From the IMG/VR virus record IMGVR_UViG_3300019730_000004, positions 1 through 33,224 of that record: DNA of 33,224 nucleotides. The stretch is one strand, 5' to 3'. This document shows, one piece after another, positions 32,318 to 33,224 of the stretch (the first letter of the stretch is position 1; each line of letters starts with the position of its first letter). The DNA is from a virus. The position numbers and the translations under genes were made by a program. The notes beneath the pieces were generated by a model. The model did no database searches. It had not been told where the DNA came from and worked only from the letters and a program-made list of their open reading frames with translations.

Positions 32318-32532
32318 TGAAGCCGGATTGGAATGATGCACCTGAGTGGGCGAACTACTTGGCAATGGATAAGGATCATGAATGGCATTGGTATGAAGAC
32401 GAGCCTGAAATTGCAAGTACATTTTGGCACTTTCGTAGGGGTAGATATGCTCATGCGCCATTGGATGCACGTGATAATTGGACTAAGTCAAGAGAGCAAC
32501 GCCCTTGTGATAAGGCTGAAAATGATGTATAA
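32317..32532 (+). CDS. Conserved small phage protein (71 aa)
   Basis: The pattern KPDWNDAPEWANYLAMDKDH then EWHWYEDEP is familiar from small early proteins of many tailed phages; function is unknown. GGGGGCGAAGTG precedes the ATG at 32317. The stop codon lies inside the -10 element of the promoter at 32505-32533. Confidence 0.72.
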   Translation: MKPDWNDAPEWANYLAMDKDHEWHWYEDEPEIASTFWHFRRGRYAHAPLDARDNWTKSREQRPCDKAENDV

Positions 32533-32533
32533 T
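32505..32533 (+). promoter_or_regulatory. Promoter of the large non-coding RNA region
   Basis: TTGTGA at 32505-32510, 17-base spacer, TATAAT at 32528-32533 (perfect -10). It overlaps the last 28 bases of the upstream gene and its stop. Expected start is about 32540. Confidence 0.75.
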
Positions 32534-32539
32534 AGACTT

Positions 32540-33072
32540 ACAGGGAATTTCAGTATCTTAGAGACCAATAAGCCGTAGCGTGAGCGTTATGCGTGGTGAA
32601 ACAAACAGCGCCTAGAGTTGTCAAAGGCTTTGGGCGTATTAGGGGTTAGTCGCTCCCTAGATATAGTATTGCGACAACTAATTAGGTGCCTGAAAGTTTA
32701 GAGTTAGATTACTCTCGGTGACGAAAGTCTTAAATTGAGGACAGCTGTATGGACAATTTAATATTATGTTGCATTTCTGTGGGATTTGTAAAAGTAGTGG
32801 CCCTTATATGAACAGAACACTACAAAGACTATCGCTTTGATGTTGGCCCCATTGGCTATAGTAAGCGTGAGTAAAGGTTGAAAAGATATATACCAATACA
32901 ACAACCAAAATAACGCAATGGGCGTATGGGTTGCATTTCTCGTTTTGCAGAGTATTGATTTGATAAGTATAGTTTCGAGTAGACAATAAGTGAACATGCT
33001 TTTAGTAATAGTTCTACCTGATTAATTAAACATAGGTTAAAAGCACCAGTCCAACTTTTACCTTTAGAGGAC
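32540..33072 (+). ncRNA. Large structured non-coding RNA candidate (about 530 nt)
   Basis: No credible gene on either strand, but many complementary segments. GCGCCTA (32608-32614) pairs with TAGGTGC (32683-32689) and encloses AGTTGTC (32616-32622) / GACAACT (32673-32679), which encloses AGGGG / TCCCT (32641-32658). Then AGAGT / ACTCT (32700-32715), a GAC-GAAA-GTC hairpin (32720-32729), TTAAATTG / CAATTTAA (32730-32761), GTAGTG / CACTAC (32794-32823), ACTATCGCTT against ATAGTAAGCG (32828-32867, order fits a pseudoknot), GGTTG / CAACC (32876-32906), and GCTTTTA-ACCT / AGGT-TAAAAGC (32998-33044). GTTGCATTTCT occurs twice (32768 and 32930). Consensus promoter in front, tRNA-like element behind. 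Comparable in size and context to phage ROOL/GOLLD RNAs; family unassigned. Confidence 0.65.
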
Positions 33073-33073
33073 A

Positions 33074-33142
33074 TATCTCATAGTTCAGTGGCAGAGCGGG
33101 CGCTTAGCGTCATGACGGATGGTTCGATTCCTCCTGGGATAT
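33074..33142 (+). tRNA. tRNA-like element that lacks the anticodon
   Basis: Acceptor stem TATCTCA (33074-33080) / TGGGATA (33135-33141, one T-G pair), TA linker, D arm GTTC-AGTGGCA-GAGC (33083-33097), one base, anticodon stem GGCGC (33099-33103) / GCGTC (33107-33111), a 5-6 base variable region, and a canonical T loop TTCGATT (33123-33129). The anticodon loop is only TTA: bases fit positions 32, 33 and 38, with the four bases holding the anticodon and position 37 missing. The T stem has two mismatches, or a one-base bulge if shifted. No CCA is encoded. Either a decoding-dead tRNA mimic, the 3' domain of the upstream RNA, or a local assembly error. Confidence 0.5.
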
Positions 33143-33224
33143 TACAATCATATAAAGGGGGTCTACGGACCTCCACTCTCCTTAAGCGATAGATTACACC
33201 AACCAACCAATAAAACCGCCTGTA
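33102..33224. repeat. Right copy of 123-bp terminal direct repeat
   Basis: Identical to positions 1-123. Shows that the window closes on itself. The repeat start falls exactly inside the anticodon stem of the tRNA-like element. Confidence 0.95.

Follow-up and report, generated by a model that had tools for sequence, protein, structure and literature searches.

The stretch 32681-33022 of a 33-kb phage contig (IMG/VR record IMGVR_UViG_3300019730_000004, all 33,224 nt of which are referred to here as the window) is, as judged by sequence and fold, a member of an RNA family that is absent from Rfam 15. Comparison of family members supports a fold in which three helices, P1, P2 and P3, meet in a three-way junction. 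The first-pass annotation had proposed a promoter-driven structured RNA that ends in a tRNA-like element and belongs with ROOL or GOLLD; the structured RNA, the promoter and the tRNA-like element stand, whereas the assignment to ROOL or GOLLD does not, there being no Rfam match to either, and the family core makes up about half of the region then proposed. To our knowledge few classes of structured phage RNA have been described, and the best known, ROOL and GOLLD, are still without a function. Structured phage RNAs of unknown function are as such already known; the present family, with its compact conserved core, its members of about 100 nt and its prophage copies, lends itself to functional tests in ways that the giant RNAs do not. 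Novelty is judged here against Rfam 15, by sequence and fold, and some papers may describe the motif already; a structured-RNA survey of human microbiomes reports thousands of motifs (PMC8040213).

The window phage and the setting of the RNA

Positions 33102-33224 of the window are an exact copy of positions 1-123, and this 123-base terminal repeat indicates that the contig is circular or terminally redundant, with its cut falling within the tRNA-like element. Compared by portal protein, the window phage comes nearest, among deposited phages, to Page-like podoviruses of Bacillus megaterium (about 25% identity). An ORF ends at 32532 and is followed by 540 bases without a supported gene, up to the tRNA-like element at 33074-33142; the terminase and virion operon lies downstream of the RNA on the same strand. 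Minus-strand ORFs of 60-77 aa within 32533-33073 had no PHROG match below E 0.1, and coding on that strand was rejected for lack of such support, in agreement with the earlier view that this part of the region holds no credible gene.

The consensus promoter previously noted ahead of the RNA was recovered on the plus strand as a sigma-70-type sequence, TTGTGA-17-TATAAT (32505-32533), identified by its 10/12 match to the consensus. On the 3' side of the tRNA-like element, sequence and fold give a plus-strand hairpin, GGGGGUC-UACG-GACCUCC (33157-33174), which lacks a T run and is therefore not a standard terminator; a terminator search of the region found none. The 11-mer that had been described as repeated, GTTGCATTTCT, does occur twice, at 32768 and 32930. 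Two inverted repeats also connect the variable arm of the RNA with sequence beyond the tRNA-like element (32829-32837 with 33184-33192, 9/9; 32801-32811 with 33148-33158, 10/11). These would cross each other, and so represent a pseudoknot at most, or chance.

Identification of the family

Only chance matches were returned by a blastn homologue search in phages and plasmids, by two 16-mers from the window used as bait and, save for the tRNA part in one record (L029), by 31 searched records of related phages; a neighbouring protein used as bait led to no homologue of the window RNA. Viral contigs were also searched for tRNAs with a shortened anticodon arm, of which many were found. The short-arm tRNA of one such contig, L144, has relatives among human gut phages, including L210 (MT838775.1), in which a stretch between two tRNAs matches the window RNA in two collinear segments. 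A scan with the longer shared block, GUAGNCAAUAAGUGAAC, yielded 24 viral and 24 bacterial contigs, and the rest of the motif was present in 23 of the viral and six of the bacterial ones; the remaining matches look like chance matches inside genes. Beyond the window, the main scans placed the family in 23 viral contigs, six genome contigs of Clostridia/Limnochordia and a single gut-phage record. Scanning with the 5' block alone added two members, L323 and L341, whose single changes within the block had kept them from matching the first pattern; P1 is kept in L341, and its inner pairs only in L323. The 5' block by itself is a weak bait, as most of its 68 matches lie by chance in genes.

A model built without the window finds the window with 40.3 bits (E 1.3e-11). 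The window has the 3' block GUAGNCAAUAAGUGAAC..AUNGUUCU, the 17-base part of which, taken from the window, also served as the scan pattern. This 17-base block was fixed by the scan pattern and the 5' block was required in the set of 21 sequences used for covariation, so that some of the conservation of the two blocks reflects how sequences were selected. Outside the scan pattern lie P1, the X-N pair, the A..A/G..G match and AUNGUUCU.

Core structure and covariation

From 5' to 3', the family consists of a variable P1 strand, X-CUGAAAGUUU, an arm, GUAGNCAAUAAGUGAAC, [GA]NGC, a small hairpin, AU[GA]GUUCU and the second P1 strand. P1 closes the junction and has an invariant G-U base; P2 (XCUG/UAGN) bears the variable arm and is linked by CAAUAAGU to P3 (GAAC..GUUC), which has a matched purine on each strand. 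About 35 bases around the junction are near-invariant, partly through selection of the search blocks.

P1 covaries strongly. Across the 21 sequences 92% of its cells pair, and seven of the eight pairs have changes on both sides, with 57 such cells against 19.9 in shuffles. The covariation score of 0.42 compares with 0.126 in shuffled alignments (reached in 0 of 500) and with at most 0.10 in slid registers. Two further features point the same way. The X before CUG and the N of GUAGNC form a pair in 22 of 23 sequences, all except the window, which has C-A. In 31 of 32, one and the same purine follows GAAC and precedes GUUC; the window has A..A.

In the window, all elements of the core lie on the plus strand. 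The 5' strand of P1, AUUAGGUG (32681-32688), ends in the conserved G of the G-U base and is followed by the conserved block CUGAAAGUUU (32690-32699), the start of which (32690-32692) forms the 5' strand of P2. The variable arm (32700-32978) measures 279 nt, against 32-286 nt in relatives. A second conserved block, GUAGACAAUAAGUGAAC (32979-32995), contains the 3' strand of P2, the junction CAAUAAGU and the 5' strand of P3 (32992-32995). AUAGUUC (33008-33014) then supplies the 3' strand of P3 (33011-33014) and, before it, the counterpart of the A that follows GAAC; the 3' strand of P1, UACCUGAU (33015-33022), starts with the conserved U. P1 has 8/8 pairs here (32681-32688 with 33015-33022), flanking CUGAAAGUUU and GUUC. 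The arm and the tRNA-like element have no sequence counterpart among other family members, and the same holds for the leader (32540-32680, plus strand), which includes most of a nested helix (32608-32689) described in the first-pass annotation.

That annotation had listed at least eight helices, among them the three-level nested helix. The number of helices found no support in the folding energy of the whole region, which was close to that of shuffles (z -0.32) in a low-power test that gave only -1.31 for a genuine ROOL; because ROOL itself was not significant, energy z-scores were set aside as a test of structure. The best local segment of 90 nt was unusual, its energy being reached by 6 of 200 shuffles. 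The nested helix has two competitors. It takes the 5' strand of P1 as its own 3' strand, so that it competes with the covarying closing helix, and in the energy model a 12-bp hairpin competes with it. No homologue was found of the leader in which it largely lies.

Comparison with known RNAs

When 925 bases were compared by cmscan with all 4227 families of Rfam 15, to E 10, tRNA was the sole significant match. The ROOL model (RF03087) matched neither the window stretch nor short-arm members to E 10, whereas the ROOL of L. salivarius was found with E 1.7e-28 in a like-sized stretch used as a positive control; GOLLD had no match in the all-Rfam search to E 10, in which ROOL was the only positive control. 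Nor was there an Rfam match for other members, namely the L210 portion and the short-arm L237, L240 and L244. The window RNA is on this comparison a family separate from ROOL and GOLLD. Kinship with ROOL, considered because the L. salivarius RNA contains a short string of similar sequence, was rejected since the two are separate loci in the same records: three phage records carry both, about 0.8, 1.4 and 6 kb apart.

The new family resembles ROOL as a structured, single-copy RNA of Bacillota phages and prophages that is often near tRNA islands, and the tRNA-like element at 33074-33142 gives the window copy the phage-tRNA proximity that marks ROOL. It differs in its conserved core, its genome position and its lack of an Rfam match, and its core spans about 100-350 nt against the 574 model positions of ROOL. 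GOLLD, often longer than 800 nt, is also a phage RNA found near tRNA islands, in contrast to which the new family has a three-helix core and a short member of about 100 nt. ROOL forms a homo-octameric nanocage, and the linker of GOLLD can contain tRNAs (PMC12286853). The HDV-like theta ribozymes similarly adjoin phage tRNAs in gut phages, sitting at the 3' end of the tRNA and cleaving within 5 nt (PMC10879173). The new RNA lies instead 5' of tRNAs, as the window copy lies 5' of its tRNA-like element, and has a closing helix that spans its entire length; HDV-type Rfam families had no match in the window stretch or the short-arm members. RAGATH-21 RNA (RF03097) occurs in the same gut-phage tRNA cassette as one new-family member (L210), but is a separate RNA with its own core and is absent from the window.

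The tRNA-like element

A tRNA-like element had been proposed at the end of the region, and one is present at 33074-33142 on the plus strand, with 37.7 bits against a gathering score of 29 for RF00005. The Rfam match and the fold agree on a cloverleaf in which a UUA triloop replaces the anticodon loop. In its four stems, all of which pair, and its T loop, UUCGAUU, it is like a tRNA; it is unlike one in having no anticodon, the stem GGCGC/GCGUC being closed by UUA alone, and in the bulged U of its T stem. ARAGORN called no tRNA in this element, for which the three-base loop may be the cause. With UUA in place of seven bases the element cannot decode, which leaves processing or protection as its natural remaining role. 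A degenerate tRNA array in 32540-33073 was considered and rejected, as the search to E 10 gave a single tRNA match.

Distribution and neighbours

Each of 25 records searched whole had one copy. Under strict filters, about 795 Bacillota genomes contained no copy beyond the seeds, and among 50,697 deposited phages searched with short consensus queries there was one record with a convincing match; the RNA is thus a sporadic phage element. A tRNA lies within 1.5 kb of 16 of 29 members, against one of 60 control loci that were chance matches of another scan and were not matched for contig size or source. In nine of the 29 the tRNA starts 44-127 nt after GUAG, and the tRNA-like element of the window starts at 95 nt. 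Ordinary tRNAs hold its position in relatives, and many members lie inside tRNA arrays.

Prophage members have recT (three times), ssb, a sigma factor and peptide deformylase as neighbours, and are placed in the early operon, after recT in those three cases and before ssb. In five members (L237, L240, L244, L246 and L257) the RNA runs directly into a Shine-Dalgarno sequence and start codon. Another, L239, has a 12/12 promoter just ahead of P1, and L248 an inverted repeat and T run just 3' of P1. The genes downstream differ between members and have no common function.

Four members (L286, L288, L292 and L296) lie in tRNA arrays in which ARAGORN calls tRNA-Pyl, a suppressor-type tRNA with a CUA anticodon. 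Such arrays hint at phages that recode stop codons. The occurrence of members in the same tRNA islands as ROOL and suppressor-type tRNAs suggests that these phages use RNA to solve a common problem.

Possible functions

The promoters of L239 and the window, together with the inverted repeat and T run of L248, suggest that the family RNA is a gene of its own. Of the explanations considered we favour, as plausible though short of probable, that this gene produces a stand-alone, trans-acting RNA that is promoter-driven and freed by processing at the tRNA-like domain. Transcription from the promoter at 32505-32533 would yield one transcript containing the leader, the family RNA (32681-33022) and the tRNA-like domain (33074-33142). 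RNase P, if it acts on this element, and the tRNA 3' enzymes would recognize its acceptor/T-arm half and cut there, which would free the RNA and set its 3' end. During infection the freed RNA would then work in trans, most likely bound to a protein of the host or the phage or to the ribosome. Action in trans is proposed because the downstream genes vary and there is a single copy, and formation of the 3' end by tRNA processing because the tRNA position is shared and because the window element has lost decoding and kept its stems. Processing of a tRNA cannot hold for the family at large, since about half of its members lack one within 1.5 kb, and the broken X-N pair (C-A) of the window counts against this explanation. 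A more far-reaching version is correspondingly tentative: these phage RNAs would be a new trans-acting class, carried once per phage and residing in tRNA islands and early operons beside ROOL, and in the window phage a tRNA would have turned into a non-decoding 3' module for processing or binding, the RNA and tRNA-like element forming one unit.

The main rival is a cis-acting element of a phage operon transcript that acts on downstream genes, whether as a processive antitermination RNA like HK022 put or as an element of mRNA processing or stability. It owes this rank to the five members that abut a ribosome-binding site and start codon, an arrangement that a cis role fits too, and is consistent with the early-operon position of prophage copies and with the single copy per phage. 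Such a role would not readily account for downstream genes without a common function, for the many members within tRNA arrays, or for a member with its own promoter at P1 (L239) and one followed by an inverted repeat and T run (L248), and we regard it as unlikely.

It is also conceivable that the family is real and the window copy a decaying remnant, with an RNA and tRNA-like element that no longer function. The shortened anticodon loop, the broken X-N pair and the lack of a copy in the nearest relatives of the window phage would all be expected of a remnant, but both core blocks, the 8/8 pairs of P1, the A..A match and all four tRNA-like stems are intact, and short-loop tRNA-like elements with intact stems recur in other phages; decay is in our view improbable. 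About as hard to credit is a ribozyme whose compact junction would cut or join RNA and perhaps mature neighbouring tRNAs as theta ribozymes do, for which the near-invariant bases round the junction (owed in part to search-block selection) and the tRNA neighbours could speak, but which sits poorly with the lack of an Rfam ribozyme match, with a position 5' of the tRNA at varying distance rather than the theta cut within 5 nt of a tRNA 3' end (PMC10879173), and with members that have no tRNAs.

Other RNA elements in the searched phages

Several additional elements were observed during these searches. Viral contigs contain recurrent tRNA-like elements with intact stems and anticodon loops of three to five bases (91 stretches found with one pattern), for example L121 3695-3765, L124 6013-6084 (also in L154, L168 and L169), L156, L192 4180-4251 and L163. 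In some contigs no tRNA is called apart from such an element; L156 carries three consecutively. These recurrent elements are a possible class of non-decoding phage tRNAs. A gut-phage cassette with RAGATH-21 RNA, present in L144 (12700-13213, minus strand) and in L210-L214, has constant flanks around a slot in which tRNAs are swapped; a short-loop tRNA occupies it in L144 and L211 and different tRNAs do so in L212-L214, and in L210 it contains three tRNA-type elements together with a new-family member.

Phage tRNA arrays also include a permuted tmRNA in L166 (2176-2354, minus strand), recognized by both Rfam and ARAGORN, and an ARAGORN tmRNA call in L157 (5794-6091, minus strand). Finally, two relatives of the window phage have in common a promoter and hairpin leader upstream of their tRNA genes (L089 5300-5470, plus strand; L099 4780-4945, minus strand), and the hairpins, GCTTAACGGTG..CACCAGTTAAGGCTTGTATT and GCTTATCAGG..CCTAGATAAGACTTGTATT, differ by apparently compensatory changes.
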